Assembly: GCA_008638375.1 (NCBI GenBank)
Contig: CM018046.1
Span: forward strand, 1,640,501-1,704,500
Reading direction: 5' to 3'
DNA length: 64,000 nt
DNA from: Nyssa sinensis
Lineage: Eukaryota; Streptophyta; Magnoliopsida; Cornales; Nyssaceae
In this document: one piece after another, positions 1 to 53,236 of the stretch
How positions within the stretch are numbered: the stretch's first letter is position 1
How the letters are laid out: each line of letters starts with the position of its first letter
Program-made: the position numbers and the translations under genes
The notes under the pieces: generated by a model
What the model saw: the letters and a program-made list of their open reading frames with translations, nothing else
What the model was told of the DNA's origin: nothing
Databases searched by the model: none

Positions 1-3000
1 TAGCAATACAAGCCTCGTTCAGAGATGAAGGAAGTCTTTTCTTGATCAGGATGATACATCTGAATCTGGTTGTAGCCTGAGTATGCATCCATGAAACTCA
101 TCAACTCGTAACCAGCAGTTGCGTCAACGAGTTGATCAATTCTTGGGATGGGGAAACTATCCTTGGGGCAAGCTTTGTTAAGGTCGGTATAATCAACGCA
201 TACTCGCCATTTCCCATTTTTCTTTTTAACCAGGACTGTGTTAGCAAGCCATTTTGGGTAAAATACCTCCCTGATTAGCTGTGCATCTAGTAACCGCTGG
301 ACTTCATCATTAATGATCTTATGTCTCTCGGGAGCAAATGTTCGTCTCTTTTGCCGTACAGGGTGGTACTCAGGATTTGTTGTCAGTTTATGGCAAATAC
401 ATGAGGGGTCGATACCTTCCATGTCCTTAGTTTCCCATGCAAAGGTTGATAACTGAGTTTTCAGAAACTCAATTATCACTTCTTGTTCTGGTGGAGATAA
501 GTCGGCACCCACCTGTAAATAACGCCCTTCTTCCTCATGGCCTACCGAGATCTTCAGTGGATCTTGGACCGGAGCAGCCATGCTATCTACGCCACGCGGG
601 CTCAAAGGCGCATCAATCTCGGTAGGACAATACGTATCTTCACCTCGGTCAGACAGGTCGAGAATCATTTGCCTCCGAGATGTCTGTAATTGCTATTGCT
701 GTTTGTTACCTTTGAGTGCAACAACATGGCATTCCCGAGATGATGATTGGGAACCTCGAATAGTGCAGATTTGATCGTTCTGTACATATTTGAGACACTG
801 GTGAAGGGTGGACGTGACAGCTCCTATTTGATGTAACCATGGTCTTCCCATGATCACGTTGTAGGGAGATCGGCAATCCACAATCACATATTCAGATAAC
901 ACTGTTTTTTGTTCGTCGCCGATCCCAATAGTTGTTGGGAAGTCAATACCGCCCATAGGAGAACTTAGATGTCCATCGAAACCAGCCATTACTGCCGAGG
1001 TGTCTTTGAGGTCAGACACGTTCAGCTTCATCTTTTGGAAAGGCTCAAAAAATAAAATATTAGTGGAACTGCCGGTGTCCACCAATACTCTAGAGATGTC
1101 GAAGTTGGCGACACGAAGAGTAATGACTAGCGCATCGGTGTGTGGGTGATGTACGCCAACTAGATCCAGTTCGGAGAATTGGATTTGTGGTGAGGGTTTC
1201 AGCTTTTTCTCCAGAGTCATGATTTGAACCGGAATTGGTGCCATTTTTGCTTCTCGCGCATAACGCTTCCTCGCCCGATTTGAAGTGCCAGAGAGAGAAT
1301 TAGTGGCATGGAGGACGAGGATAACATGAGTATTGGCTTGTGATGGCTGATTCGTCCCAAGAGTGGACCCCTGATCTTGTCTTGGTGGCTGAGGCTTAGG
1401 CTCCTGCCGAGGTTGTTGGGGTTTCTGGGTCTGATTATGTGGTCCAGATTCCCGTTGAACGAATTCTTTCAGTCGTCCCCTCCGAATTAGCTGCTCGATC
1501 TCCTGTTGAAGATGTCGGCATGTTTCCGTAGTATGTCCGTGATCTCGGTGAAATTCACAATACTTACTACGATCTCGGTGGTCCGGATCAGCATATAATG
1601 GATCTGGACGCTTAAAAGTTTCATGTGTCTTGACCTGATTATAGATCTCAGATATGGAAGCAGTCAAGGGAGGCAATGGCACACTCAGAGGTGCATATGA
1701 TCTGAAACGTCCCGATGTTGTCTGATTTTGACCTCGGGATGTTTTCGTCTCAGGACTTCTTTGCCGTTTGCTGGTATTACCAGTATTCTGCATTTGTGAC
1801 TTCCCCTCATTTTGTATTTGTTCTTTGGCAAGACGAAGGGATGTTCTGGTGTCTTCCAAGTTGATGTGTTTTCTCGCCCTTTCCATCAATGATGCCATGT
1901 CGACAGGAGGATTTTTTGTCAGGGAATCATGAAAACGTCCTGGCCAGAGTCCAGCATGTAAGGCGGCCACCAAGAAGGCTGCACCACAATCAGTGATCTC
2001 GGTCAGCTCGGAATTAAAGCGAGCGATATAATCCCTAAGGGATTCTCCCTTTCGTTGTTTTATGGACAAGAGAAATTCCGGTCCCTTTCTGAACCGCCTG
2101 CTGGTTAGAAAGCGATCAAGGAAGCGCCTACTGAGCTCGTAAAAGTTGGGGACTGAATTTGGGGGGAGATTATGGAACCATCGAAGGGCTGCCCCTTTGA
2201 GACTCGTCACAAAGGTGCGACATAGAAATGCGTCAGTGGCGCCATGAAGGGCCATGGTATGCTGGTAATTTGAAAGATGATCGCCAGGATCATCCAATCC
2301 TTCATACGGGGTGAATTTTGGGACAATGAACTTACGAGGACGCTCCTCGGCTAATATAGCTGGGGTAAACGAAGTCGTAAATCTTCCGAGAAGCTTTGCT
2401 ATTTTGTCCTGTTGAGGAGGTGGAAGTCCTTCTCGAGCAGGAACTGCTTGTCCTATGGAGTCTGCCACTTCTTCTGATCGTAGTGGTACTCTGGATGGGG
2501 CAGAGTGTTGAAATCCTGGTATACCAACCTCAAGCCCAGTAGGTTGAGGATTGTTCTGACTAGGGATTGCATGCTCGGGCTGTCTTTGATTGGACACAGG
2601 TGCCGGTTGAAATGGTGGTCCGGATTGCACCAAGTTAGCACCAGCATTCGCAGGGCTAACAACATGGCCCCTGCTATAAATAACGTTGTTAGGTCGCATG
2701 TTGGGTACACCCCCTGGAACGTCATATCGAACTGGAGTTACACCCTAGGGAGAAAAGGGACGAGCGCTAGGGCCACCCTCCTCATATTGCCTCCGTTGCG
2801 GAGGATACACTAATGGATATCCGCTTTCAGGCACTCCAGAGTGAGGGAGAACCGATGGATTTTGTGTCAAAGAAGCCAAGACTTGAGATATGGCAAAGAG
2901 CTGAGCCTGCGTTTGATCGGCTTGTTTCTGCATCTGAGCTCGAATTTGATCCAGCTGTTGCTGCACAGGATCAGAAGTTGCAACTTCTTCATCCTGAGCG

Positions 3001-3044
3001 AGCGGTTGAGTGGATAGTGGTGCAGAGCGACGGTTGGAAGCCAT
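1..3044 (-). CDS. gag-protease-reverse transcriptase polyprotein (partial, two in-frame TAG codons)
   Basis: One reading frame runs from the ATG at 3,044 to the left edge. It is interrupted only by TAG at 2,745-2,747 and TAG at 693-695. The N-terminal part is glutamine-rich. The capsid core contains SLKGAALRWFHNLPPNSVP, followed by a zinc-knuckle-like CEFHRDHGHTTETCRHL and an aspartic protease active site VLVDTGSSTNILF. After the second TAG the same frame goes straight into the reverse transcriptase fingers and palm. The first TAG sits in an ordinary context (CCC TAG GGT) and is probably a decay mutation. The second (CAA TAG CAA TTA) looks like a programmed readthrough site. Some family members express this region as one open frame. 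The coding potential is otherwise well kept, so the copy looks fairly young. Confidence 0.88.
693..695 (-). promoter_or_regulatory. Candidate translational readthrough stop codon
   Basis: On the minus strand the bases around the stop are CAG CAA TAG CAA TTA CAG. CAA-UAG-CAA-UUA is the classical leaky stop context of tobamovirus replicase genes (UAG CAR YYA). It lies after the protease and before reverse transcriptase, and both sides are in the same frame. If used, most product would be Gag-Pro, with a minority of Gag-Pro-Pol. Confidence 0.6.
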
Positions 3045-3117: not shown

Positions 3118-3652
3118 TGATGCAGCTAATTTGGGCTCGTCATGGAATAATCCGTCGCCGTGAACCTGAAAAGAGATGATTTGTAAAAAGCCACCGGGAA
3201 AGGTTCCGGTGGTAACCTCTCCGATGGTTAAGTTAGTATTCTTCTGTTTTATCAAAGGTTTAGCCCTTTTCTCAGAATGTAATTTAGATGAAGATACCTC
3301 TCTTTCATACTTACTTTTCCTTGTTTATAGTGTTGAGGAGGCGGTTTAACTTGTCTGACAAGCGACGGACATCCCTTTCATATAATTTATGGCTCCCTTT
3401 ACACGTGTACGTGCAGGAATGGTTTTCCAAGCCTGTAGCTCCTTTTGACAGGACTAGGGCTCACCGCCTGTCAGGCTATTGCAGTATAATCATGAGACTT
3501 TCGTCATTCTTTTTGTCGATTTATTCAATTGTTCCGAGATCGGTATACCGACGTGTACCTCGGTATATTTTCCCATAATATGTAAGAAAAATTAGCTTTT
3601 CGGAACGTGTTTAAGTTATCTGAGTTAAGCAGAATGTTTTTATGACGTATCA
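3118..3652 (-). repeat. LTR of the Ty3/gypsy element
   Basis: It begins TGATAC and ends GCATCA on the element strand, so it has the usual TG...CA ends with short inverted tips. It is followed by 3 bases and then a tRNA-CCA-complementary TGG. It holds a TATA-like CTATAAAC at 3,323-3,330. The length is about 535 bp. The right boundary is inferred from the TG end alone, because the second LTR is not in the window. Confidence 0.65.
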
Positions 3653-3684: not shown

Positions 3685-3779
3685 TGCATTTGAGCGGCAA
3701 TTGATTCCGCCGATGCAACATTCATTGCAACTTTCATGCTTTTGGACATCCCACCAATAAAGTTTCCAGCCCCATCACA
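3685..3779 (-). other. Possible exon remnant next to the LTR
   Basis: A 95-bp stretch is bounded on the minus strand by an AG acceptor and a good plant donor (GTATGTTT). It encodes a peptide containing GGMSKSMKVAMNVASAES. Its composition is more GC-rich and codon-like than the surroundings. I do not recognise the protein. The gypsy LTR begins about 30 bp beyond the donor, so if the exon is real the retrotransposon landed in its intron. Confidence 0.25.
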
Positions 3780-9335: not shown

Positions 9336-10124
9336 AAAATTTCCCATTTAACAACCTAGAATTATTTTTAAAAACCACTTCAGGTATTGTTGTACTGCAG
9401 TTTCGGGTGTTGTTTTGACAGTAAACATCTGGTGTGCCTTTGATTTTTCTGGAGGAGACAACTCAAGTGAATATAGCTGTTGATAGCTTCTGAGAAGCAA
9501 TAAAAGTGGCTATAACAAGGACGGCAGCACCGACGTGTTAGTTTTAACTTCATGGAATTCTGTTTACTTTTGGGATTGGTTTGGACTCATCATGATCAAT
9601 GCAGTCATAAAGTATCTGCCATTTTTGGTCATATGGTATGCTTCTTTTAATATTTTGGATTCTGCAATTGATTGTAACTTGCAAAAAGTTAGGGCAATGA
9701 GATTCTTTTCATACATATGGAGTTGGGTAATATTTTCATGCCATCCATTAAGCAGAATATGAAACTTTGTCATCACTAGATTGATCTATACGATTTGATG
9801 AAGATGGGTACATTATTCCAAATACCCATTCCAGCGAATATAGCTTTATCATACATAAATATAACTTTGAATCATTTTTTTCTTGAACTGTCAAAGTTGG
9901 CTTCGAATGTGTTTGGCTGGAAAGGTTTTCCTAAATGTTCGAATGAAACAATACACATGGCACACCTACGCTAACTTTGGCATAAATTTTTTCTGAGTGG
10001 GTTCCAAACTTCCATCAGGTGCTGTCAACTATAGATGGTACAGTTCTTGAAAATTCTTTTTTAAAGAGAGCAGAGGAAAATTGGTAGGTAAGTTGCTTTC
10101 TTGAGAGATTTTGAGAAAGAAAAT
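9336..10124 (+). promoter_or_regulatory. NLR1 5' flank (conserved upstream block)
   Basis: This non-coding block is shared with 18,520-19,302 and with 19,428-19,880 plus 26,318-26,702. Conserved stretches include GCAGAATATGAAAC, GTGTTTGGCTGGAAA and GGTTCCAAACTTCCATC. It ends in the leader just before the NLR ATG. It probably contains the promoter. At the TATA position NLR1 reads TTCTTTTTTAAAG where NLR2 reads TTCTTATTTATAG. Confidence 0.5.
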
Positions 10125-12884
10125 ATGGCTGAGGCTGCTGTGGGGTTCTTGGTTCAGACCATTGGTTCCCTTCTGGAGAACGAAGCTGCATTGTTAGGAG
10201 CAGTTCGCAGTGAAATCAGTGAGCTCAAGCTCGAGCTAGAAAGCACAAGATCATTCTTAAGGGATGCAGATAAGTTCCAGAATGACGGGGTGAGAGTTTG
10301 GATGACACAAGTAAGAGATGCAGCATTCAAGGCTGAAGACATAATCGACGAGTTCATGTATCAGATAGACTGCCTGACAAGAGTAGGTGGTGGTTTCAAG
10401 GGTTTCCTTCGTAGAGTTATTTACCTCCCAAAGGAACTTTCGTTGAAACATCGAACTTCCATCAAGTTGCAGCGAATCAAAGCCGAGATCAAGGCCATAG
10501 CAGAAAGAAGCAAAAGATATAGCTTTGGTAACATAGAAGAATTTCCAAGCACGCGTCACACTTCTTCATGGGCACAGAATATCAGCGAGTCTTCGTTCTT
10601 TACTGAGGATGATGTTGTGGGGATTGAGAAGGAGAAAGACTTGTTGATAAAGTGGTTGGTGGATGGAGAAATGCAACGCACTGTAATTTCAGTTTGGGGA
10701 ATGGGGGGCTCAGGAAAGACAACTCTAGTTTCCAAAGCTTACAGGGATCGTAACGTGAAGCGACATTTTGACTGTTCTGCATGGATTTCTGTCTCCCAAA
10801 GTTATGATATCGGGGATCTGTTTAGAAGGATGATTGAAGAATTTTTCAATGGAGAGGAGGAATTAGTTCCTACTGGTTTAAGCAGCATGGGTTACATCAT
10901 GTTGGTAAAGATCCTTATAGAGTTCTTGCAACAAAAGAGGTATGTTGTTGTTTTAGATGACGTATGGGATAACAACTTTTGGAGGCAAATAAACGTTGCC
11001 CTTCCAGATGGTAGACATGGAAGCCGAATTATTATAACAACCCGAAAGGAAGACATAGCGTCTTACCCTTATGGGGTTGGAGGCCATGTTCTCCATCCTA
11101 AACCTCTTAGGAAGACTGATGCATGGACCCTTTTTTGCAAGAAGGCTTTTTGCAATAATGCCTCTAGTGCACAATGTCCTCCAGAATTAGAAAATCTAGC
11201 TCGGGCCTTAGTTGAAAAATGTGAGGGTCTACCACTAGCAATTGTGGCTATGGGCAGTCTCATGGCTACCAAAGAAAAGTCAGAATTGAAGTGGAGGGCA
11301 ATATCTGACAGTCTCAATTGGCATTTGAGCAACAATCCCATGCTGGAAGTGGTAAAAACCATTTTGTTTCTCAGCTTCAATGATTTACCATACTACCTTA
11401 AGAATTGCTTTTTGTATTGTTGTCTTTTCCCGGAGAATCGTTGGATCGCAGGGACTAAACTCGTTCAGCTATGGATGGCCGAAGGGTTTGTGGAAGAAAG
11501 AAGAGGTCAGACGCCAGAGGAAGTAGGAAAAAGCTACCTTAAAGAACTCATTTCCCGAAGCCTGATTCAAACTGTGAAGAAGAACCAAATTTTTTTGGGG
11601 CCCAAATTATGCAAACTGCATGATCTAATGCGGGAGATTGCACTTTCAATATCTGAACGAGATAATTTCTGTTCTATATATCATCAGCCAGGAATTAACG
11701 AAGGGAGAAGAACACGTCACCTGTCAGTCCACACTGTTGATGGAACATTATTGTGCAGGGATATGTCACAGGTTCGCTCTTTCTTGGCTTTCAATTTTGA
11801 CACGAGCTCCACCTTTTACTTAAATACATTGTTATCCAGCTTTGGATTAATAAGGGTGTTGGATTTGAAAGATGCCCCAATTGATAATTTACCCAAAAAC
11901 TTTGGTAAATTATTCAATTTGAGGTACTTGAGTCTGAGAGGAACTCGTATAAAGGAGCTCCCAAAGTCCTTTGAAAGACTCAGGAATCTACAAACCCTGG
12001 ATCTCAAGAGAACAGAAGTGAAGGCACTTCCACGTGGTATAGTTAAGTTGCAAAACTTGCGCCATTTAATTACTTGTAGCGCTGCTGAAAATGAAGAATT
12101 CACTCAAGTAATAGGGATTCAAGTTCCAGCAGATGTGTGGAAGTTAAAGAACTTGCAAGTCCTAAGTTGCATCGAAGCAAACAGTGATGTAGTTAAGGGA
12201 ATTGGGAGTTTGACTCAGATAAAAAAGATTTACCTTACAAAAGTGAGAGAAGAAGACGAGTTACCATTGTGTGCCTCTATTGAAAAGCTGGAACTCCTTT
12301 GTGGCCTACTTGTAATGGTTACTGATGAGGAAGAGACCCTTCGAATGGATGCTCTATCATCACCTCCCTCGTCTCTTCGAAAGCTTGCCCTGATTGGAAG
12401 ATTGAAAAATGTGCCTCCTTGGTTTTGCAAACTTCACAGTATTGCACGTTTGCATTTGCATTGGAGCAGACTACCAGAGGACCCTATTCCACACTTAAGT
12501 GTATTGCCCAAATTGAAGCACCTCACTTTGGTTAACGCCTATGATAATGGCAAAGTGAAATTGTGCTTCAATGAAGGTTTCCCTGAGCTCCAACAATTAT
12601 CCCTTGTACTTTTACCTGAATTGATTGAAATAATAATTTCAGAGGGAGTGATGCCACAGCTCAGATGCCTAAACCTGCACGTCTGTGCTAAATTGAAGGC
12701 AGTGCCCCAGGGCATTGAACACCTCACCAAGCTCGAAGAATTGGACTTGAAAGATGTCTCAGAGGAACTCATCAAAGGCATTGAAGAAGAAGAAAGCATT
12801 GATCGTCCAAGGGTAAAGCACATCCCGGTGATCAACTATTATTTCAAGACACCAAGCGGGTACAATTGTGAAAGTCTATCCTAA
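10125..12884 (+). CDS. NLR1: RPM1-like CC-NB-LRR disease resistance protein
   Basis: A 919-residue intracellular immune receptor in one coding exon. Proteins of this class sense pathogen effectors directly or through guarded host proteins and switch between ADP and ATP states to trigger cell death. The start is ATG at 10,125 (MAEAAVGFLV), the N-terminus usual for the class. The Rx-type coiled coil spans about residues 1-180 with an EDVID-type motif AEDIIDEF at 70-77. NB-ARC follows: P-loop GMGGSGKTT at 192-200, kinase-2 VVVLDDVW near 274-281, RNBS-B SRIIITTR near 300, GLPLA at 368, RNBS-D CFLYCCLFPE near 428-437 and an LHD in the MHD position at 498-500. LRRs fill the rest. All catalytic motifs are intact and the length is normal. 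It is closely similar to NLR2 over the whole protein and both flanks. No frameshift is seen, so it is likely functional. Confidence 0.96.
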   Translation: MAEAAVGFLVQTIGSLLENEAALLGAVRSEISELKLELESTRSFLRDADKFQNDGVRVWMTQVRDAAFKAEDIIDEFMYQIDCLTRVGGGFKGFLRRVIYLPKELSLKHRTSIKLQRIKAEIKAIAERSKRYSFGNIEEFPSTRHTSSWAQNISESSFFTEDDVVGIEKEKDLLIKWLVDGEMQRTVISVWGMGGSGKTTLVSKAYRDRNVKRHFDCSAWISVSQSYDIGDLFRRMIEEFFNGEEELVPTGLSSMGYIMLVKILIEFLQQKRYVVVLDDVWDNNFWRQINVALPDGRHGSRIIITTRKEDIASYPYGVGGHVLHPKPLRKTDAWTLFCKKAFCNNASSAQCPPELENLARALVEKCEGLPLAIVAMGSLMATKEKSELKWRAISDSLNWHLSNNPMLEVVKTILFLSFNDLPYYLKNCFLYCCLFPENRWIAGTKLVQLWMAEGFVEERRGQTPEEVGKSYLKELISRSLIQTVKKNQIFLGPKLCKLHDLMREIALSISERDNFCSIYHQPGINEGRRTRHLSVHTVDGTLLCRDMSQVRSFLAFNFDTSSTFYLNTLLSSFGLIRVLDLKDAPIDNLPKNFGKLFNLRYLSLRGTRIKELPKSFERLRNLQTLDLKRTEVKALPRGIVKLQNLRHLITCSAAENEEFTQVIGIQVPADVWKLKNLQVLSCIEANSDVVKGIGSLTQIKKIYLTKVREEDELPLCASIEKLELLCGLLVMVTDEEETLRMDALSSPPSSLRKLALIGRLKNVPPWFCKLHSIARLHLHWSRLPEDPIPHLSVLPKLKHLTLVNAYDNGKVKLCFNEGFPELQQLSLVLLPELIEIIISEGVMPQLRCLNLHVCAKLKAVPQGIEHLTKLEELDLKDVSEELIKGIEEEESIDRPRVKHIPVINYYFKTPSGYNCESLS

Positions 12885-26306: not shown

Positions 26307-26702
26307 ATATATATAGTCATGCCATCCAATTAGCAGAATATGAAACTCCATCATCGCTAGATCAACAAATATGATTTGATGGAGATGGGTACAAGATTCC
26401 CAATACCCATTCCAATGAATATAGCATTATAATAAATATAACTTTGGATAATTTTTTCCTTGAAGCGTCCCAGGATTAGAATGTGTTTGGCTGGAAAAGC
26501 CTTCTAAAATGCTTGAATGTAACTATATGGATGGGACGGGACACCTACACTAACTTTGGCATAATTTTTTTCTGAATGTGTTCCAAACTTCCATCATGCT
26601 CAGACAGCTGTAGATAGTACAGTTCTTTAAATTCTTATTTATAGAGAGGAAAGAAGAATTGGTAGGTGAGTTGCTTTCTTGAGAGATTTTGAGAGAGAAA
26701 AT
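26307..26702 (+). promoter_or_regulatory. NLR2 5' flank, right part of upstream copy 3
   Basis: It aligns with 9,730-10,124. It carries a TATA-like TTATTTATAG at 26,636-26,645, about 60 bases before the ATG, then the shared leader AATTGGTAGGTGAGTTGC. Only about 400 bases of the ancestral NLR promoter remain next to the gene. The rest lies beyond the CACTA-like insertion. Confidence 0.5.
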
Positions 26703-29624
26703 ATGGCTGAGGCTGCTGTGGGAATCTTGTTTCAGATCATTGGTTCTGTTCTGAAGGAGGAAGCTGCATTGTTAGGAGCAGTTCGCAGAGAAATCAGCGA
26801 GCTCCAGCTTGAGCTAGAAAGCACGAGATCATTCTTATTGGAAGCAGAAAAGCACAAAGACAAAAATGAAGGGGTGAAAATTAGGATGGAACAAGTAAGG
26901 GATGCAACATTCAAGGCTGAAGACATAATCGAAGAGTTCATGTATCACATAGACCACCTGAAAAGACTAGGTCGTGGTTTCAAGGGTTTCCTTCGTAGAG
27001 TTATTCACCTCCCAAAGGAACTTTCGGTGAAACATCGAACTTCCATCAAGTTGCAGGAGATCAATGCTGAGTTCAAAGCCATTGCAGAAAGAAGCAAAAG
27101 ATATTCTTTTGGTGGCATAGAAGAAAATCCAAGCACAAGTGGCACTCCTTCATGGGCACAGAATATAGGCGAGTCTTCGTTCTTTATCAAGGATGACGAT
27201 GTTGTGGGGATTGATGAGAAGAAAGATACGTTGATAAAGTGGTTGCTGCATGGAGAAATGCATCGCACTGTAATTTCAGTTTGGGGAATGGGAGGTTCAG
27301 GAAAGACAACCCTAGTTGCCAAAGCTTACAAAGATCATAACGTGAAGCGACATTTTAACTGTTCTGCATGGGTTCCTGTCTCCCAGAGGTATGAGATCAC
27401 GGATCTGTTCAGAACGATGATCAAAGCACTTTTCAATCGAGAGAAGGAATTAGTTCCTACCAGTTTAAGCAGCATGGGTTACATCGAGTTGGGGAAGATC
27501 CTTGTCGATTTCTTGCAACAAAAGAGGTATGTTGTTGTTTTAGATGATGTCTGGAATTACAACTTTTGGGACGAAATAAACACTGTCCTTCCAGATGGTA
27601 GGCATGGAAGCCGAATTATTATAACAACGCGAAAGGAAGACATAGCGAATTACCCTTATGGGGTTGGACGCCATGTTCTCCATTTTGAACCTCTTGCAGA
27701 TAGTGATGCATGGACCCTTTTTTGCAAGAAGGCCTTTGACAATAACCCCAGGGCACAATGTCCTCCGGAATTAGAACATCTAGCTTTGGCCTTGGTTGAC
27801 AAATGTGGGGGTCTACCACTTGCAATTGTTGCTATGGCCCGTCTCATGGCTACAAAAGAAAACTCAGAATTGAAATGGAAGGAAATACATGATAGTCTCG
27901 ATTGGCATTTGAGCAACAATCCCATGCTAGAAGTGGTGAAAACAGTTTTGCACCTTAGTTTCAATGATTTGCCATACTACCTCAAGAATTGCTATTTGTA
28001 TTTTTGTCTTTTCCCGGATGATCGTTGGATTGCAGGGAGTAAACTGATTAAGCTTTGGATGGCCCAAGGGTTTGTGGAAGAAAGAAGAGGTCTGACACCA
28101 GAGGAAGTAGGTAAAAGCTATCTTAGAGAGCTCATGTCCCGAAGCCTGATTCAAGCCGTGAAGAAGAACCATTTCTTTTTCCGGCCCAAACTATTTAAAC
28201 TACATGATCTAATGCGGGAGATTGCACTTTCAATATCTAAACAAGAGAACTTCTGTTTTGTATATGATCAGTCAGGAATGAAAGAAGAAGGAAGAGCACG
28301 CCACCACTCAATCCACATGGTTGATGAAATGCTTCAATTGTGCAAGGATATGTCACAGGTTCGCTCTTTCTTGGCTTTCAACGTTAACAAGAGTTCCATC
28401 TTTTCCGTAGATACACTGCTGTGTCGTTTTAGATTAATAAGGGTGTTGGATTTGAACGGTGCCCCAATTGATAATTTACCCACAAGCTTAGGTAAATTAT
28501 TCAATTTGAGGTATCTGAGTCTGAGAAGAACTCGTATAAAGGTGATTCCAAAGTCCTTTCGAAAACTCAGGAATCTACAAACGCTGGATCTCAAGAAAAC
28601 AGAAGTGAAGGCACTTCCACACGCAATAGTTAAGTTGCACAACTTGCGCCATTTAAATACTTGTGGTGCTCCTAAAAATGAACAATTTGCTCAAGTAATA
28701 GGCATTCAAGTTCCTAAAGATGTGTGGAAGTTGAAGAACTTGCAAGTTGTAAATTGCATAGAAGCAAACCCTGATGTAGTAAAGGGAATTGGGAAGATGG
28801 CTCAAATAAGAAAGATTTACCTTACAAAAGTGAGAGAAGAAGACGAGTTAGCATTGTGTGCCTCTATTGAAAAACTGACACTCCTTAATCGCCTACTTGT
28901 AATGGTAACCGATGAGGAAAAGACCCTTCGAATGGATGCTCTATCATCCCCTCCCCCATTGCTTCGAAAGCTTGCTCTGATAGGAAGATTGAAAAATGTA
29001 CCTCCTTGGTTTCGCTCACTTCACAAACTTGTAGGTTTGCATTTGCATTGGAGTAGACTAACAGAGGACCCTATTCCACATATAAGTGCATTGCCCAGTT
29101 TGAAGTACCTCACTTTGGTAAATGCGTATGATATTGGCAATATGCAATTGCGCTTCAATGAAGGGTTCCCTGAGCTCCAGCAGTTATCCATCGTACTTTC
29201 ACCTGAATTGATTGAAATAATAATTGCAAAGGGAGTGATGCCAGGCCTCACACGCCTAAACCTACACATCTGTGCTAAGTTGAAGGCAGTGCCTCAAGGC
29301 ATCGAACACCTCACCAACCTCGAAGAGCTGAACCTGAAAGAAGTCTCAGAGGAACTCATCGAAAGCATTCGAGGAGAAGAAAGCACTGATGGTCCAAGGG
29401 TGAAGCACATCCCAGAGATCAACCATTATTACAAGAAACCTAGCGGGCTCCAGTATGAAAGTCTATCCCAAATTCTTTCCAGGGGCACCATGTTTGAGGG
29501 TGAAATAGGTACTGATATAGTTTTCCTTTTATCTTTAGATTTGTGGAAGAGAATGAAGTGTTCAAACCTCATGCTGCCAAGAATTATTCTGTTTCAATTT
29601 AAGTTGCATCATTTGATTATTTGA
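26703..29624 (+). CDS. NLR2: RPM1-like CC-NB-LRR disease resistance protein
   Basis: A paralogue of NLR1, 973 residues as an uninterrupted frame from ATG 26,703. The coiled coil has AEDIIEEF at 72-79, with the last acid of the EDVID-type motif changed to Glu. NB-ARC motifs are intact: P-loop GMGGSGKTT at 195-203, VVVLDDVW near 277-284, SRIIITTR near 303, GLPLA at 370 and LHD at 500-502. LRRs follow to about residue 915. Where NLR1 ends in a TAA after ESLS, NLR2 has CAA and runs 50 more residues into former 3' flank. An AG|GTACT donor at 29,508/29,509 and acceptors at 29,652 or 29,702 could instead splice to a short tail. The true C-terminus is therefore uncertain. No break in the domains is seen and it is probably functional. 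Confidence 0.95.
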   Translation: MAEAAVGILFQIIGSVLKEEAALLGAVRREISELQLELESTRSFLLEAEKHKDKNEGVKIRMEQVRDATFKAEDIIEEFMYHIDHLKRLGRGFKGFLRRVIHLPKELSVKHRTSIKLQEINAEFKAIAERSKRYSFGGIEENPSTSGTPSWAQNIGESSFFIKDDDVVGIDEKKDTLIKWLLHGEMHRTVISVWGMGGSGKTTLVAKAYKDHNVKRHFNCSAWVPVSQRYEITDLFRTMIKALFNREKELVPTSLSSMGYIELGKILVDFLQQKRYVVVLDDVWNYNFWDEINTVLPDGRHGSRIIITTRKEDIANYPYGVGRHVLHFEPLADSDAWTLFCKKAFDNNPRAQCPPELEHLALALVDKCGGLPLAIVAMARLMATKENSELKWKEIHDSLDWHLSNNPMLEVVKTVLHLSFNDLPYYLKNCYLYFCLFPDDRWIAGSKLIKLWMAQGFVEERRGLTPEEVGKSYLRELMSRSLIQAVKKNHFFFRPKLFKLHDLMREIALSISKQENFCFVYDQSGMKEEGRARHHSIHMVDEMLQLCKDMSQVRSFLAFNVNKSSIFSVDTLLCRFRLIRVLDLNGAPIDNLPTSLGKLFNLRYLSLRRTRIKVIPKSFRKLRNLQTLDLKKTEVKALPHAIVKLHNLRHLNTCGAPKNEQFAQVIGIQVPKDVWKLKNLQVVNCIEANPDVVKGIGKMAQIRKIYLTKVREEDELALCASIEKLTLLNRLLVMVTDEEKTLRMDALSSPPPLLRKLALIGRLKNVPPWFRSLHKLVGLHLHWSRLTEDPIPHISALPSLKYLTLVNAYDIGNMQLRFNEGFPELQQLSIVLSPELIEIIIAKGVMPGLTRLNLHICAKLKAVPQGIEHLTNLEELNLKEVSEELIESIRGEESTDGPRVKHIPEINHYYKKPSGLQYESLSQILSRGTMFEGEIGTDIVFLLSLDLWKRMKCSNLMLPRIILFQFKLHHLII

Positions 29625-38935: not shown

Positions 38936-38937
38936 TT

Positions 38938-41238
38938 GAAATTGTGCTCATCACACTTCAGTTGGTAGAAAAGCAGGATTTGCAGGTGTTGGTGGTAGAG
39001 GAACAAGTTCATTGCTAAGCATTGAGACAACATCGGACATAGTAGGTCAATCAGTACCTCAACAGAGTAGATGTAGAAGAAGGATATCCCAGTATTGGAT
39101 CAGTCAAGTCCAACCCTTGATCAGCATTCCACAACTCCCATGCCTGCATTATTCAGTTATATGTAACTATTGCATTGTTATATCTCATATCAACAACACT
39201 GCAATGCCTAAACAACAAGAAAAGGAAAGGTATATCAGTTGCTCACATATCCAAGAAGATTGAGACTGTCACCATGACAAAAACCAGTATTCTTCTTGCC
39301 GCTCACAATCTCAAGCAGCAATATTCCAAAGCTAAATACATCAGAGTTTATCAAGAAAAGGCCTTCCATTGCGTATTCAGGAGCCATATACCCACTAAAT
39401 TTTAAAATACAGCAGAACCATTGTTAGTACCTCAGGGCAGCTTATGTTTCTTTTTTGCTACAATGTGAGTTGTGTATGTATCAGCAGAGGTTTTTGTTTT
39501 TACTTACTAAGTTCCAACAATCCAATTTGTGTTTGCCTGTGAGTCATTGCCACAAAATATCCGCACCGTGCCAAAATCTGATATTTTGGGGTTCATTTCA
39601 TTATGTAATAGAATATTACTGGCCTTTAGATCTCAATGAATGATATGCAATCTTGAGAATTGATGCAGGTAAAGAAGCCCTTGAGCAATCCCTTCAATGA
39701 TGTGAATGTGTGTCCCCCAATCCAACATCTCTTTTTTGTTTGGGTCTACATTGAGTTTACATTAGACAAAAAGGATTTAAATAGAAAAAAATGTTGAAAA
39801 TAGTGATCAAATATGGGAGAACACTAACCAAATAGGAAGAAATCCAAACTTTTATTGGCCATGTACTCGTATACTAATATATTATCTTCTTGCTCGATGT
39901 AGCAACCTAATAGTCTAACAAGATTCCGGTGCTGGAGTGTGGCTATTAGTATTGTCTCATTTCTGAACTGCTGGAGCCGTTGACCAGATCTTTTAGAAAG
40001 CCTCTTCACTGCTATTTCTTGCCTCTTGCATGACTTACCCTATCAAATTACACAGATCAGTAACCTTATTTAAACTGTCACTTGACTAGTCAAATAAATT
40101 CCAAGAATGAAAAAACATTTGAGTGCCACAGAGAAAACAATTTTGCCAGAAATTTTTTGGGGAGGTCAAATCAAGAAGTGTCACTAAAGAAGATGAGAAA
40201 ATTTTACATAAATTAAAAGGTAGAGTTTTTGGGCATTGTTGGCATTCTTAATTACTTGGCAACAAGATTTTACCTGTACATTTTCCTACAGTAGAAATTC
40301 AATGTTACCTTGTAAACAGGTCCAAGGCCTCCCTCTCCAAGCTTATTGGCTTCCGAGAAGTTAGTTGTTGCAGCAGAGATACTTGCAAAGCTAAACAATG
40401 GCAACTCAATGTCCTTCCCTCCCTTTCTCATGTTATTCCCAGCGTTTTTTTCATCAGTTGTATTAGTACTAGCACTAAAATCAAATAACAATAAATCCTC
40501 ACTTGAATCCCTCTATCCTGTTTATTATCATAGAATGGCAAGACTGTCAACTTTCTGGAAATCGAAGTGATTTCTAATGAAAATTTACTTCCAAGAGGTC
40601 ACAATTTATGGTTTATTTCAAAATAGTCCAAGTCAGTCCACAAAACATGTTCTTAAGTATTGCTTTTCAAAAAGGATATGATTTAATTGTTCTATATTGA
40701 TGTAAATACTGCTTATATGTTTGTGAGAATGCAAGCTCTGAGATTTGTGGCTAAAACTTACAAGTAACCATTTGTTTGAGCTTTCTCATGCATAAACAGC
40801 TATGATACCACCGGAAATTAGTACTGTAAGTGAAACCAGCACTGATATGATCACCCAGAAATTCTTCCTGTTCCCTGAATTCATACACTAGAATCATCAT
40901 TAGTTAATAATTTAAAAAATACAAAACTACTACGTAAATGGACAAAAAGAAGACATTAGGTTTTCAGTAGAAGTTACTTTTGTAGCCACATACCTCCACC
41001 ATTATGAAGCTCAGAAGCTGCAAGTTTCAGATAGAGATCTTGTTTAGTGTTGTTGCCATCTGAGAGTTGTAGATTCGGTAAAGCTCCTTACCATACTAAA
41101 CACCCACTACTATTATAAGCATAGGCTGTGCAGGAACAATTTTGCATACAACCCAATTCGCACCATTTAGGGCTCTTAGCAGGAAATGTTTTTGCATTTG
41201 CTGGCAGTTTCATGTTTGAAATTTTCAAAAACTTATCA
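38938..41238 (-). pseudogene. RLK1: S-domain (G-type lectin) receptor kinase pseudogene, 5'-truncated
   Basis: Pieces of all seven exons align with RLK2: E1 end 40,994-41,238 (PAN region only), E2 40,768-40,874 (transmembrane), E3 40,309-40,517 ([10 protein letters not shown]), E4 39,829-40,039 ([10 protein letters not shown]), E5 39,508-39,745, E6 39,247-39,394 ([11 protein letters not shown]) and E7 38,938-39,143. The lectin and S-glycoprotein domains are missing. Lesions: GAA to TAA in E1 (VW*GA), a 1-bp loss and a ruined donor (GT to TT) in E2, TAG at the start of E3, TGA replacing the catalytic-loop Arg in E5 (IIH*DLK, 39,633-39,635), a deletion with frameshift in E7, and a LINE in E7. 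It cannot make an active receptor. Confidence 0.92.
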
Positions 41239-45838: not shown

Positions 45839-48800
45839 CTATCTGGCCTCGATCACTGAAAGTGTCAAACTATTTACGGAGCCATTTCCTGCATTGCTCA
45901 GTAATGAATTTGTGTTTATCACACTTCGGCTAGTAGAAAAAGCAGGTTGCTTAGGCTTTGGTAGAGGAACAAGCTCATTGCTAATCATTGAGACAACATG
46001 GGACATAGTAGGTCGATCAGTTGGATTTTCTTGGACACAGAGAAGCCCTATGTTAATGTACCTTCAACAGAGTAGATGTAGAATAAGGATTTCCCAGTAT
46101 TGGATCCATTAAGTCCAACCCATCGATCAGCATTCCACAAATCCCATGCCTGAAGTATTCAATTATACAAAGTTTCAAGCATCTTTGTATCTCAAATCAA
46201 CATTGTAAGGCAAAAAGAATAAATTAAAAGAAAAAGAAAGTTAAATTAGTCACTTACATATCCTAGAAGATTGAGAGAATCTGTATTATAAAAACTAGTA
46301 TTCTTCTTGCCACTCACAATCTCAAGCAGCAATACTCCAAAGCTAAACACATCAGATTTTATTGAGAAACGGCCTTCCATTGCGTATTCAGGAGCCATAT
46401 ACCCACTAAATTTACAAAAAAGCAGAATCATTGTTAGTGCCTCAAGGCAGCTTATGTTGCTTTTTTGCTACATCAATGCAAGTTGTGTATGTGTCCGCAG
46501 AAGTTTTTGTTTTTTTTTTACTTACTAAGTTCCAACAATTCGATTTGTGTTTGCCTGTGAGTCATTGCCACCAAATATCCGCGCCATGCCAAAATCCGAG
46601 ATTTTGGGGTTCATTTCACTATCTAATAGAATGTTTCCAGCCTTTAGATCTCTATGAATGATACGCAATCTTGAATATTGATGTAGGTAAAGAAGTCCTT
46701 GAGCAATCCCTTCAATGATGCGAATGCGTGTCCCCCAATCCAAAATCTCTTTCTTGCTTGGATCTAATATAGAGAGTTTACATTAGATAAAAAAGGATTT
46801 AAATAAAAAAATAATAATAGTTGAAAATAGAGTTCAAATATGGGAGAAAACTAACCAAAAAGGAAGAAATCCAAACTTTTATTGGGCATGTATTCATAGA
46901 CTAATATATTTTCTTCTCGCTCGATGCAGCAACCTAACAGTTTAACAAGATTCCGGTGTTGGAGTTTGGCTATTAATACTGTCTCATTTCTGAACTCCTG
47001 GAGCCCTTGTCCGGATCTTTTAGAAAGCCTCTTCACTGCCATTTCATGCCCCTTGCATGATTTACCCTGTTAAAAATTATACAGATCAGTAACCTTATTT
47101 GAACCATCACTTGAGTAGTCAAATAAATTCCCGCTGAGAAAAAAAAAAATTCCAGCAAGTTTTTTGGGAAGACAAATCAAGAATTGTCACTAAAGAAGAT
47201 GGGAAAATTTTTCCATAAATTAAAACGTAGAGTTGGGCACTGTTGGCATTCTTAAATCTTAATTACTTGGCAACAACATCTTAACTGAACATTTTCTAAC
47301 ATTGGAGGCCAAAAAATTGTCAATGGTTCTAACAGAACTTAATTCAAATATTCAATGTTACCTTGTAAACAGGTCCAAAGCCTCCCTCTCCAAGCTTATT
47401 GGCTTCTGAGAAGTTAGCTGTTGCAGCAGAGACACTTGCAAAGCTAAACAATGGCAATTCAATGTCCTTCTTCCCTCCTTTTCTCATATTATTCCCAGTG
47501 TTTGTTCCATCGGTCGTATTAGTACTAGCACTAAAATCAAATAACAATAAATCCTCACTTGAATCCTTCTCCCCTGTTCATTTCATGGAACGAAAAGACT
47601 CTCAACTTTCTGGATATCAAAGTGATTTCTAAAAAAAATTATGTTCCAAGAGCTCACAATTTATGGTTCATATCAAGATAGTCCAAGTCAGTTCCAAATG
47701 TATATGTTCTCAATTATTTCGATTCAAAAAGATAGATGTTTTTCATTGTCCTATATTGAAGTATATATTGCTTATATGTTTTGTTTGAATGCAAGCTCTG
47801 ACATTTGTGGCTAAAACTTGTTAAGTACCCATTTGTTTAAGCCTTCTCATGCATAAACAGTATATGATGCCGCCTGAAATTGTTACTGTTAGTGGAACCA
47901 GCACTGATAAGATCAACCGGACTTTCTTCCTGTTCCCTGAATTCATACACTAGAATCTTCATTAGTTATAAGTTGTAACTTAAGAAACACAATGGACAAA
48001 AAAAGAAGACATTAGGTTGTTGGTAGAAGTTAATTTTATCTATTGCAGCCACATACCTCTACCATTATGAAGCTCAGAAGCTGCAAGTTTCAGGTAGAGA
48101 TCTTGTTTAGTGGTGTTGCCATCTGAGAGTTGTAGATTCAGTAAAGCTCCTTCCCATACAAAACACCCACTACTATTATAAGCATAGGCTGTGCAGGAAC
48201 AATTTTGCTTACAACCCCATTCGCACCATTTAGCACTCTTAGCAGGAAATGCTTTCGCATCTGCGGGCAGTTTCATGTTTGAAATTTCCAAAAACCCATC
48301 TCTTTTCCCATTGGCAGAGGTACTATTTTCGCACTGCAAAGGAGTTTTCCTCTCACAACCTCCTGGCCAATCATTTAGTTCTGTGTCTTTGATTACAAAT
48401 GGTTCAAAACCCTGCAAACACTCGCAGAACATTGAATCATTCTGATTAAAGATGCCGAATGGCCCGCAAAAATTTATAGGTTGAGACCATAATATCTTGC
48501 TGCCCAAAAACCCGCTAAACCTTGTTAGCACCTTTAACTGTCCCGCCAAATCCAATACAATTAGTGCCAATGAAGGACTACGGTTAGTAGAATAGACAAG
48601 ATAAGTTTCATTTTCATTGGAGACAAAACTGAAATTGGAGAATAACAAAGCTTCCCATTCAGGAATCGAGCTGAAAATTTGTCCATTCCAAACTCCACTA
48701 CTCCAATACTTTCTGGACATGTTCCACTCTAAAACAAATTGCTTTCTTTCATCTGGGTCTATACGAACTGAGAAAATTCCAGGAGCGGGATCCTCTGAAT

Positions 48801-49359
48801 TTTTCCATGAAGTAACGACCTGGGATGCACCAGTCAGTTTATTGATTCCGAGCTTTGCACCCGGCAGCCATGTATCTGTTGGGTGATCAAAACTCTGCCA
48901 ATATATAATAGATGGTTTTGAAACATCTCTTATCACAAAATTTCCATTATCAAGAAGCACTGCTTCAGTAGAATTTTTTGCCGGTAACATCAACTTTGTT
49001 GACCAAAGTCGATATTCAAACCAAGTGAGGATTAAATTATTATCTACAGAGAATGTAAGTTTCCAATTTTCTGGCTTAGTCAATGGTTGTTCTCTGTTAG
49101 CTACCCAAACTATGATTTGATCAGCAAAATTTGTATACCATATGCCAAGGTAGACGTTATAATTACCTTTTTTGAAGAAGCCCAGTTCAAAAATACTACC
49201 TTGAGAAATTAAGGTCTGGCTTACCGAGAGAGAATGGCCTGGTGAAAGAGTATCACCTCCAATAGAGAAACATGACTTCTGCAACTTGAATAGAAGCAGA
49301 ACACACAGAAAGACCCATAATCTTGTTGCATTGCCAGTATGCATCTTTAGTTGCCACAT
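45839..49359 (-). CDS. RLK2: S-domain (G-type lectin, SD1-type) receptor-like kinase, last exon frameshifted
   Basis: A plasma-membrane receptor kinase of the S-locus family. Exons: 48,057-49,359; 47,829-47,936; 47,362-47,573; 46,856-47,066; 46,526-46,763; 46,258-46,405; 45,839-46,149. All junctions are GT/AG and phases fit. Starts at ATG 49,359 or 49,344 precede a signal peptide ([10 protein letters not shown]). Then come B-lectin, S-glycoprotein and PAN ([16 protein letters not shown]) domains in exon 1, a membrane segment in exon 2, [10 protein letters not shown] in exon 3, catalytic Lys AVKRL in exon 4, HRDLK and DFG in exon 5, and [11 protein letters not shown] in exon 6, about 740 residues. 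Exon 7 carries two 1-bp insertions relative to RLK1 (near 46,121-46,124 and 46,061-46,064). It would stop at 46,048-46,050 after about 33 foreign codons, losing the last kinase subdomains. Otherwise intact. Confidence 0.88.
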
Positions 49360-51210
49360 TTGCAGATATCTCAACCACGAAAAAAAATGATCATAATGAA
49401 GAATAAGAAGGAGAAGAGCAATCCGAATAGAAAGGCACCTTTATCAGTTATTACAAAGACCCATAGTCAATGAGAGATGGGGGGCGGAGATGTTTTGCTC
49501 CACACTTTTTTTTTTTTTTTGATGACAGTGGAACCCTTCGAAGGACATAGTCTATCCGCAGCCTACGGACGGCTCGACCTCCACATATTGGTCTTCAGTC
49601 TTCGCCCTTCTGCATCCAGTTGATCTGGCATGGATCTAACTTGTAACATCATTTTTTTGTTTTCAAGATGCACAAAAGTAACATCTTATCTCGGGGCAAA
49701 AGCACATTTGGCCAAGCTACGACTTTACAAACTATAAATTTTTTTTCTTTATACACATTGTAGGTACTTGAAATAGTCAGTCACCAAGAAAGAAAGGTTG
49801 AGGATTCGCAACCCACATGACACGTGAAAGTCTTAAACAATGCCACGCTAAATATGTCACCTCTAAAAAGACGTGACTTAACATCCAAAGACCTCTCCCT
49901 TAAATCGTCTCTTGAACTATGGCAGGAAAATCTCGCTGAGAATGTAAGTTTACATTTCAAAAAGGAGACTTGGCTCGAAAAAGATAAAAAGACTTACTAC
50001 GTCCTGTTATCTCAGTGATTGACCAAAACTAATCCTACACTCCTATCAGAGTCTTCTACGATGTTCCGTAACTACGTTTTATTTTAGACACAAGCTGACC
50101 ACCACGTAGAAGGTCATCCCGAATATTTGAAAAACCCTAACATACTCACACGTGTCAACCCTACTATAAATAAACCCTAGCGTCATTCATTTGACTAGGA
50201 CAAAAAAATCAAGATCCCAATAATTACAAATGATAAGAGTAACCTTGGATTTGATAGAAAAATAAAAGAATTAAGATAAAATTTTAGTATAAAAAAATAC
50301 AAAAATGAAGGTAAAATTGTATAACGTGAGAATAAGACATCTAATTGTATAACGTGAAAAATTGCTAACTATTTATGTTTCGTTTTTTACTTTTTATACT
50401 TCACATTGTGGCCGTAGGAATAAATTATGAGTTCATATAAGATAGAACTATATTTGCCTAAATGTAAGTCACAATTAAAGCTACTATATTAATAAAATAA
50501 CCTTTTTTAAATTTGTTATCATTCAGGAGCGGCTTAAGATAATTGGAAACTTAAAGTGACCATTTCAAATGATTTTTTTTTTAAATTTTAATAATAATAT
50601 AAAAAATTATTTAATATTAATATATATAATAAAATTCTAATAAATATATAATATATAAAAATATTTTTAATGCTTTGTTCAAATATGTATATATAATATA
50701 TATGCATATATTTTTGTAATATAAAATTATAATAGTATTTAAATAGGAAGAGGTGTATATATAATCTAACAATTGAGCAATTCTAAGAAAATCTATAAAA
50801 TATAAATTAGGTAATACAAAAAAAAAAAATGAAATAAAGCTCTTGTAATATAATTAATTTTTTTTGGAGTATTTATGGAATCTTATTGGTAAAATTAGAA
50901 TTCTATTAAACTTAGATTTTTAATTTGAATTATACTATAAATATAAAATTTGGAACACTTTTTATAAGTGGAGATAAAGTGATTGTTTTATTTTATATAT
51001 TAATATTAAGGTCTAAGGCATATTTTAGCCTTTTGTGGAACTAAAGAGTTTAGCTTATTGGCCATACAACAAATTGATTGTCACGACAAAAGCGACATTA
51101 CAAGTTCGCAATGGGCACTAACCCTTATGCAGTGCAATACAACGTAACCAACTACAGTGTCCCGGGGTACTCCAATCACCGTCCAATGGAAACAACCCAG
51201 CACAAAACAT
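49360..51210. other. Intergenic between RLK2 and the DOG1-like gene
   Basis: 49,500-50,230 is a GC-richer stretch ending with CTACTATAAATAAACCCTAG, which looks like the promoter half of an LTR, but no second boundary was found. 50,240-51,060 is AT-rich with no gene seen. Confidence 0.4.
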
Positions 51211-52005
51211 TCACACATTCTCCCGCTGACGGTCCTGATTCAAACCCCACTCGCGGACCCCAAACTGCAACTCGGCCGCTGCAATCAAGAACTCCACAGC
51301 TTGTCGCGGCGTCAACAAATCCACCACTCTCCGGATCGTCCTCAGCCGTAGATCATCAGCCTTTTGCTCAATCCTCACCAGCTGTTCGATCTTCCTGTCA
51401 AGACCTGAACACACTCCAATCAGATCACTCGCACCATCCTGTAAACAAAGTTCATATACACATTTGGATGTATATATATATATATATATATATATGAGTA
51501 TTCTTTTCAAAATGAGGATCGGGTTAAATCAATCAACAGGATTGAAGCATACCTGCCATTCAGACAACTCATCAGTGATGGCATTCTCTTCTTCGACCGT
51601 CTCACACTGTAGATCGCTGACTCGCCGGAACTGACCTGGGGAGAGATCGCCGAGGTCGCCGGTGCGGAGGCCACGGAGGATGTCGGTGATGCGAGACTCG
51701 AAGAGGATGCTGGATTCGGTGTAGACAAGGTGGAAGACGGTGGTTGGACGCCAGCCGGCGATCCAGTGGAGGGAGCGCTCGAGCGAGGTGGACCAGGGGG
51801 CGGAGAAGACGGAGAGGACGTCGTGTTCGGCGGCGAGGGACTTGACTCGGTAGTACTCGGAGCAGTGAGTCATGACCTTGTGGACTAGCTGGAGGAGTTT
51901 GTGACTCTCTTCTTGGGTGGTGGCCGGCCTAGGGGCCTTGGTGAGTTGATCCACCAGATGGTGCAGGTGGTCGAACCAGGTCTCGTAGAAGCGCCGGAAT
52001 GTCAT
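51211..52005 (-). CDS. DOG1-domain (TGA-like, DOG1-like) protein
   Basis: Two exons: 51,553-52,005 and 51,211-51,438, joined in phase 0 (CAG|GTATGC donor, TTTACAG acceptor). The 226-residue product starts MTFRRFYETWFDHLHHLVDQ, the canonical DOG1-domain opening. It has the central HWIAGWRPTT motif and ends LRTIRRVVDLLTPRQAVEFL then IAAAELQFGVREWGL, the family C-terminus that resembles the non-bZIP part of TGA factors. Family members act in seed dormancy and ABA signalling or as TGA-like regulators. The specific role here is unknown. An upstream in-frame ATG at 52,128 would add 41 residues without domain similarity, so I prefer 52,005. The gene is clearly more GC-rich than its surroundings and appears intact. 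Confidence 0.93.
51467..51496. repeat. (AT)n microsatellite in the DOG1-like intron
   Basis: The TA run lies within the single intron (51,439-51,552). Confidence 0.9.
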
Positions 52006-52128
52006 TTGTTGGGTGGCAGAGAGAAAACAACGGAGGCAGTCAGGCAGAAGGATTGGATCACTGGGTTGGGTTGATTTAATACTTGCGTTGTGTGTATCTG
52101 AAACGGTTGAGATTGGGCTGACTTGCAT

Positions 52129-53236
52129 GCTCGGTTGTCAGCCGCGTGGAGACCACTTGGAATAACATGATTGGATATTGTAGGAGATTCTTGGTAGTTC
52201 TAGTTGATCTCTTAGAACCAAAAAAAATAATAGTTGATCTCTCTCAAAATATATATGTAATTTAAAAATTATTATTTAATTTAAATAATTAATTTATTAA
52301 TTATATGAATATACACAGGCTATTTTAAGTCATATAATTTAAATTTAGATAAATTATACTATTTTTTTTTTAAATTTTTGATAATTACACTGAATTCTAG
52401 TGACAGTTTTAAAATTTTATTGATCTTTTCTATTTACTTACAAATTATAAATATCTCATTTTAGTTAATTTTTTTAAAATAATAAAACTACACCTTTCTT
52501 TTTTTTACATTTTTTTTCAATTTTCACCAGTTTTTAAAACTCTTTTAAAGATTTTTTGTATTTTTTAATTTAAGTTAAATAACTTATTTTCATTTCATAT
52601 AAAAATAAGTTTAAGGTTACAATTAATATTTATTTAAAAATAAAATAAATTAAAAAAATTGGTCATAATTTTTTTAAAAAATGTATATTAAAAAAAACAT
52701 AAAAAATGACAAGTGTATAATATGTAAAATTTAAAAAAATAAAAAATACATTTATATACATTACGGTTTTTGATTAATTGAATCTTATTACTTAGTTAAT
52801 TTTTCGAGATCATTTAATAATTTTTTTTTCAGTTGATGAAGTTAGGTCTACTTTTGGACAACAAATTGTCTCTTAACCATCACCTCAAAACTTACCATTA
52901 TTTCAAAATAAGGATGTCACTTGAAGGCCAAAACTTCATAGCTACATAAGCATAATAATCAATACAAAAACATAAAAATTTAAAATAGTTAAATTGAAAC
53001 ATATAAGAATAAATTTTTTTAATATAAAACTATGTTTTCCTTTTCCAATAATCAAATAAAATATAAAATTTCTTATATGTTATTTTTTATTTTTATTTTT
53101 TTTCATGCTTTGAGCTAAGCACGATCTTTTTCTTATTTAAAATATAAGTGTCATTGAGTAATCAAATATTTTTATTTGAATTTTAATAAGATTTGTAAAG
53201 GTATTTCACTACCTTGCGGTGATTTGACACATTTTT

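Follow-up and report, generated by a model that had tools for sequence, protein, structure and literature searches.

In the genome of Nyssa sinensis, a family of Ty3/gypsy retrotransposons carries a UAG stop codon, followed by CAA UUA, between the protease and the reverse transcriptase (RT) of a single reading frame, and this junction is conserved throughout the family. Judging from sequence comparisons, it is very probably a programmed readthrough signal of type I, the tobamovirus type, through which a population of Tat-lineage elements would make both Gag-Pro and Gag-Pro-Pol. Readthrough had been proposed in a preliminary description of one copy, and the analysis reported here supports that interpretation.

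The stop codon and its surroundings in the window

One copy lies at the edge of the window, by which we mean the whole 64-kb stretch of DNA that was analysed. Its features are the following.

693..695, minus strand: UAG stop at the boundary of the protease and RT frames (window sequence; a stop is found in 89/92 alignable copies sampled by RT)
686..697, minus strand: conserved context AATAGCAATTAC, a candidate readthrough signal (type I: UAG CAR YYA); the best conserved of all 12-nt windows over 1,040 nt among the representatives of 15 clusters, with codons CAA and TTA invariant in 15/15
696..3044, minus strand: gag-pro frame, from the ATG at 3044 to the putative leaky stop, interrupted in the window copy by a private stop at 2745-2747
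1944..2216, minus strand: Gag domain (PF03732), E 2.2e-13
1065..1079, minus strand: motif DTGSS (1079-1065), which we take to be the aspartic protease active-site motif, 128 codons 5' of the stop
3..692, minus strand: pol frame 3' of the stop, an open reading frame in the same frame that ends at the window edge
24..230, minus strand: reverse transcriptase domain (PF00078, partial), E 3.9e-09
2745..2747, minus strand: second in-frame TAG, a private decay of the window copy outside the signal (sense codon in 15/15 other copies examined)
644..679, minus strand: possible downstream hairpin at the place of an aligned 7-bp stem, with 5 bp in the window (CUCGG/CCGAG, by eye); weak and optional

On the minus strand the junction reads CAG CAA TAG CAA TTA CAG ACA, with the TAG at 695-693 and the ATG at 3044-3042 in the same frame, 783 codons upstream. 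The exact context CAA TAG CAA TTA and its frame from the ATG at 3,044, as first described, are thus confirmed. No Pfam protease match was obtained for the window protein, and Asp_protease_2 in the relative L065 fell below its cut-off.

The window copy ends before the RNase H part of pol. Two relatives, L065 and L063, contain RVT_1, RT_RNaseH and RVT_3 in that order, that is, RT, RNase H and an extra RNase H (aRH). According to the available text of PMC6317226, an extra RNase H after RT-RNase H marks the Tat lineage, so the domain order supports the placement in the Tat lineage of Ty3/gypsy that had been suggested from the window copy.

Taken alone, the window leaves room for chance. The TAG could be an ordinary nonsense mutation that happens to lie in a leaky-looking context: this copy carries another, private stop (2745), and TAGCARYYA is not rare in the window, where 5 matches were found and 4.4 are expected. 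The case for a signal therefore depends on other copies.

Elsewhere in the window, two long frames on the plus strand (10092-12884 and 26670-29624) encode similar proteins of the CC-NLR disease-resistance type (Rx_N, NB-ARC, LRR); they sit in a duplication of about 4 kb with 84.5% identity. On the minus strand, an exon at 48040-49440 with B_lectin, S-locus glycoprotein and PAN domains overlaps one copy of a 2.3-kb duplication (38937-41232 and 45905-48295, 82% identity), and an open frame with a DOG1 (seed dormancy control) domain is found at 51529-52137.

Conservation of the junction among genomic copies

Family copies were searched for in the 1.0-Gb assembly. The published N. sinensis assembly comprises 1,001.42 Mb in 22 pseudo-chromosomes, and recent proliferation of LTR elements, particularly Ty3-gypsy, is described in the available part of the same paper (PMC6877568). 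A 15-nt motif spanning the stop, with up to 2 mismatches allowed, occurred 8,560 times in the genome, compared to 1,395 times for the reversed control. All 30 exact matches fetched (L001-L030) adjoin gag-pro and RT of related elements. As these loci were picked by the motif itself, this sample alone proves little. A second sample of 30 loci (L031-L060, L031 being the window copy) was found with protease DNA alone, the junction being excluded from the query: TAG was present in 30/30 and was followed by CAATTA in 28/30. These copies are 97-100% alike over the query and represent one young subfamily.

A third sample was obtained with the RT motif FMDAYSGYNQI, written as a degenerate DNA pattern. 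Since this motif lies 600 nt from the stop, the stop had no part in the choice of copies. The pattern occurred at 3,717 places in the genome (control, 0), and a sister motif (FMDAFSG...) at 4. The first 100 listed places, all within the first 31 Mb of chromosome C1, were taken, 30 of them as loci of 3 kb and the other 70 as 151-nt windows placed at the distance expected for the junction. At the junction, 92 of the 100 could be aligned; L061, L071, L104, L105, L107, L109, L135 and L148 were dropped.

Among these 92 copies the junction codon was TAG in 85, TAA in 4 and AAG in 3. The following hexamer was CAATTA in 79 copies, TAATTA in 7, CAATCA in 3, CAGTTA in 2 and TAATCA in one, so that the type I arrangement, CAR YYA directly 3' of UAG, is found well beyond the window copy. 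Departures most often consisted of a C-to-T change in CAA (8) or a G-to-A change in TAG (4). Among the points that speak against readthrough are the AAG of those three copies and the 8% of copies that could not be aligned. The AAG arose through an indel in L106 and has TAA as the next codon in L092. The third copy, L108 (G000:C1:19899727-19899877), has sense codons at both positions and is the sole clear sense copy of the 92.

The preliminary description had suggested looking at whether TAG CAATTA is conserved in other copies, and had named a majority of copies with a sense codon as the outcome that would overturn its reading; the result was the opposite, and CAA TTA is held at the nucleotide level. 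One part of the description did not extend to the family. While TAG CAA TTA is family-wide, most of the 92 copies read AAA TAG CAA TTA, and the CAA that precedes the stop belongs to the window's clade. Over the whole genome, AATAGCAATTAC followed after 228-252 nt by TTYGCNTGG was found at 3,233 places, and its reversed control at none.

Chance decay is refuted by this family-wide conservation, with a stop at the junction codon in 89 of 92 copies chosen regardless of it, and we give it a probability close to nil. Moreover, at each of the other codon positions examined, at most 3 of 27 oriented RT-sampled loci carry a stop; only these other positions are informative here, because the 27 loci were retained only if they had a stop-like junction. 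The TAG at 2745 was also considered as a second programmed stop and discarded: the contrast drawn earlier between the two TAGs holds, since this one is a sense codon in all 15 other copies examined and thus a private decay.

Constraint on the signal and on the flanking proteins

Clusters and codons were analysed on 86 of 90 loci plus the window, oriented by a loose stop-like pattern (L055, L061, L071 and L080 had no match to it and were left out). The 87 entries include at least 11 duplicates, where one element had been reached by two routes, which leaves about 76 distinct elements. The set fell into 15 clusters below 88% nucleotide identity, 14 of which hold an RT-sampled member. In the 1,040-nt alignment of protease to RT for the 15 representatives, AATAGCAATTAC ranks first of all 12-nt windows, with a mean conservation of 0.989, compared to 0.956 for the RT motif used for sampling. 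The flanks diverge strongly among copies, as in AAGGAGAAGGCTCCTAAA, AAAGCTAAGGCCCCCAAA and AAAGGTAACAAACAGCAA before the TAG. A single codon is used throughout in only 6 of 186 conserved-residue columns, and the CAA and TTA after the stop are two of those six: among the representatives, this CAA is the only invariant column of 11 for Gln, and this TTA the only one of 17 for Leu, a residue that elsewhere is spread over all six codons. These conservation and codon figures come from copies screened for a stop-like junction, whereas the 92-copy tally is free of such screening.

Downstream of the stop the frame is open and continuous with the upstream one, and both parts are constrained as proteins. 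Between the main clades, pS is saturated (0.76-0.95) and pN far lower (0.08-0.26), alike in protease and pol; low pN against saturated pS on both sides indicates that both halves behave as translated proteins. The 85-codon linker directly 3' of the stop evolves faster (pN 0.18-0.37 between main clades), and the conserved signal stands out within it. Many copies are intact apart from the stop. In 10 of the 30 RT-sampled 3-kb loci, the roughly 1.5 kb preceding the RT motif contain no in-frame stop other than this TAG. The whole fetched length is open save at the junction TAG in 8/30 motif-sampled loci and in 5/24 protease-sampled loci (one of them the window; L055-L060 are outside this tally), and 8/17 loci of a further listing are open on both sides with the same exception.

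If the UAG were a true terminator, pol would have to be translated from a second start, by reinitiation, leaky scanning or internal entry. An in-frame ATG does occur 9 or 10 codons 3' of the stop in the window's clade. It is not conserved: in L063, L065, L069, L076 and L085 the first in-frame ATG is codon 91, adjoining FAW..DM at the RT N-terminus, and restart at a downstream ATG was rejected on this lack of conservation across clades. In the window, the 2.6 kb that precede the stop contain 42 ATG triplets (in any frame), so that scanning is unlikely to reach a downstream start. Independent initiation would also leave the shared frame and the invariance of CAA TTA unexplained, and we regard it as very improbable.

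Removal of the stop by splicing deserves the same scrutiny, as the related element Ogre has an intron at this very junction, between Gag-Pro and RT (PMC6317226, in the text available), and in one Nyssa gene model, P0181, protease and pol are fused over the stop. The spacing in the Nyssa elements argues against it. In 87/92 aligned copies the stop deviates by no more than 5 nt from the position expected for it, 600 nt away from the RT motif, and the protease motif, seen in 17/30 loci, is 983-994 nt from the RT motif. This near-constant spacing leaves no extra region for an intron, and the intron was rejected on that ground; the intron region between the Gag-Pro and RT ORFs that characterizes Ogre among Tat elements is thus not found in the Nyssa elements. 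Nor is there a conserved splice-site pair: GGTAA is found only in the window's clade, and TTACAG is TTACTG in another clade. Splicing, too, is therefore highly improbable. The P0181 model (Nyssa sinensis F0562_013405) lacks the conserved C-terminus of the protease and is likely a gene-prediction artefact.

A different question is whether readthrough could be driven mainly by an RNA hairpin downstream, and not by CAA UUA. A 7-bp stem that begins 13 nt 3' of the stop is paired in 77% of cells across 16 diverged copies, compared to 36-49% when slid; it is the best of 1,316 arm placements and was beaten by 4 of 1,000 column shuffles, and a G-C to U-A change stays paired. On the other hand, it was the fold of a single copy that first drew attention to the arms, which makes this a test after the fact. 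In a 9-copy test pairing was 69%, with 16/1,000 shuffles, and RNAalifold, applied to nine copies, predicted 2 pairs but not this stem. Single-copy z-scores were only 0.1 to -1.7, and the stem is weak in the window's clade, with 3 of 7 aligned pairs forming in the window copy. As CAA TTA is far better conserved than the stem, a leading role for the hairpin appears very unlikely.

Predicted mechanism, known systems and spread of the signal

With the hexamer as the favoured signal, we infer that readthrough does occur in these elements, and the account of its rate, products and purpose given here is a prediction. Most ribosomes would terminate at the UAG and release Gag-Pro. A minority, aided by the CAA UUA 3' of the stop, would read the UAG as sense, the parallel with tobacco mosaic virus (TMV) suggesting Tyr as the probable residue, and continue into RT, RNase H, the second RNase H and (integrase), yielding Gag-Pro-Pol. 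With the stop located after the protease, the ratio of the two products would set the protease at the level of a structural protein and the RT at that of an enzyme.

A close parallel is the replicase of TMV, a tobamovirus, and of similar plant RNA viruses, whose stops belong to the same UAG CAR YYA class (available text of PMC2754532 and PMC11166343); in the window's clade the likeness extends to the CAA before the stop. In plant tissue, readthrough of the TMV context is reported to reach 32%, the inserted residue being Tyr and CAR YYA being essential (PMC2754532, in part); this rate was measured on a reporter with the TMV context and not on Nyssa elements, most of which have AAA, not CAA, before the stop. 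In the same source, readthrough remained significant when the 5' codon was replaced and fell by more than half when one 5' and one 3' base were altered together; according to the accessible part of PMC2194720, the hexamer alone directs readthrough in TMV. Unlike that of tobamoviruses, the Nyssa signal is part of a chromosomal LTR retrotransposon and separates protease from RT.

Among plant LTR retroelements, stop suppression has likewise been reported for SIRE1 of soybean (PMC2829016, available portion). The SIRE1 stop lies between pol and an envelope-like gene in a Ty1/copia element, whereas that of Nyssa lies between protease and RT in Ty3/gypsy. The SIRE1-type arrangement is not seen in the Nyssa elements, where RT is followed directly by the RNase H domains and no integrase appears in the 300 codons seen upstream of RT.

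In Moloney murine leukaemia virus the stop follows gag, and the protease is on the pol side. UAG readthrough also makes a Pol fusion in this virus (PMC2194720 and PMC5009743, available text), though with a type III signal that consists of a purine-rich spacer and a pseudoknot.

Within the Tat lineage, Ogre has the same boundary, which splits Gag-Pro from RT-RH-INT (PMC6317226, in the text available); it uses a partly spliced intron there, and no intron fits the Nyssa elements. Retand, also of the Tat lineage and a non-chromovirus, has one gag-pol ORF in 59% of clusters and two in the rest, and the available portion of PMC11963269 names no recoding signal for it, while the Nyssa elements have a specific candidate leaky stop. 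Retand elements are further characterized by an antisense ORF with a Transposase_28 domain, located between pol and the 3' LTR; the window copy ends before this region. Type I readthrough, two-ORF Tat elements and the stop suppression of SIRE1 are thus already known. In the open literature, judged by titles and the beginnings of abstracts and with longer result lists covered in part, we found no earlier report of UAG CAR YYA at a Ty3/gypsy protease-RT junction.

Relatives of the Nyssa elements in other plants do not all have a stop. Among 120 listed of 5,929 protein matches, 52 Tat relatives from other plants have protease and RT in one uninterrupted protein, 30 of the 52 lying outside named gene models. 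The Tat lineage at large therefore does not require the stop. In a 44-protein subset of the 120, the protease motif was present in 25 proteins. Twelve of the 25 end 129-147 residues after the motif and 9 of these 12 end in Lys, as expected from AAA TAG, although this range was chosen after looking and several of the proteins are alike; with the range widened to 124-147 residues, 9/15 end in Lys. One of the nine, P0060, ends in ALKEKAPK exactly at the stop; it is a close relative and may itself be from Nyssa. Such C-termini, taken as hints, suggest that the signal is older than Nyssa.

A further protein, P0268, is alone among 299 proteins in crossing the junction as ...VAK-Y-QLQ... within one frame, Tyr occupying the position of the Nyssa stop. 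Tyr is also what plants are reported to insert at the TMV stop (PMC2754532, available text).

Searches of other sequence collections gave little. Viral contigs searched by protein contained no relative. Two exact-motif scans of viral contigs brought up at least 120 loci each, and among the 240 loci taken from them no relative of gag-pro or RT was found at E 0.01. One search of genome contigs gave nothing and another gave one distant RT relative, L417, in a bacterial assembly, and the 10 plasmid records were all below 60% identity. As no DNA copy from another plant was found, the spread of the signal beyond Nyssa is drawn from protein sequences only. UAG CAA UUA after the protease may be an old switch that Tat/Retand elements have in common throughout the flowering plants: some lineages would have kept it, Ogre would have an intron in its stead, and single-ORF elements would have exchanged it for a sense codon. 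This we put forward tentatively, thinking it somewhat less probable than its contrary.

For plant Ty3/gypsy elements whose gag-pro and pol are separated by a break, the literature covered explains the production of Pol only in the case of Ogre. The answer proposed for Nyssa is a short signal common to plant RNA viruses and kept in thousands of copies, in a family that includes near-identical, recent-looking members (97-99%). For annotation, this implies that elements with a leaky stop may be misread as broken; at least one gene model, P0181, spans the stop at the cost of part of the protease. The finding also suggests that UAG CAA UUA is translated as sense in a plant host at a frequency sufficient to sustain a mobile element with thousands of copies.
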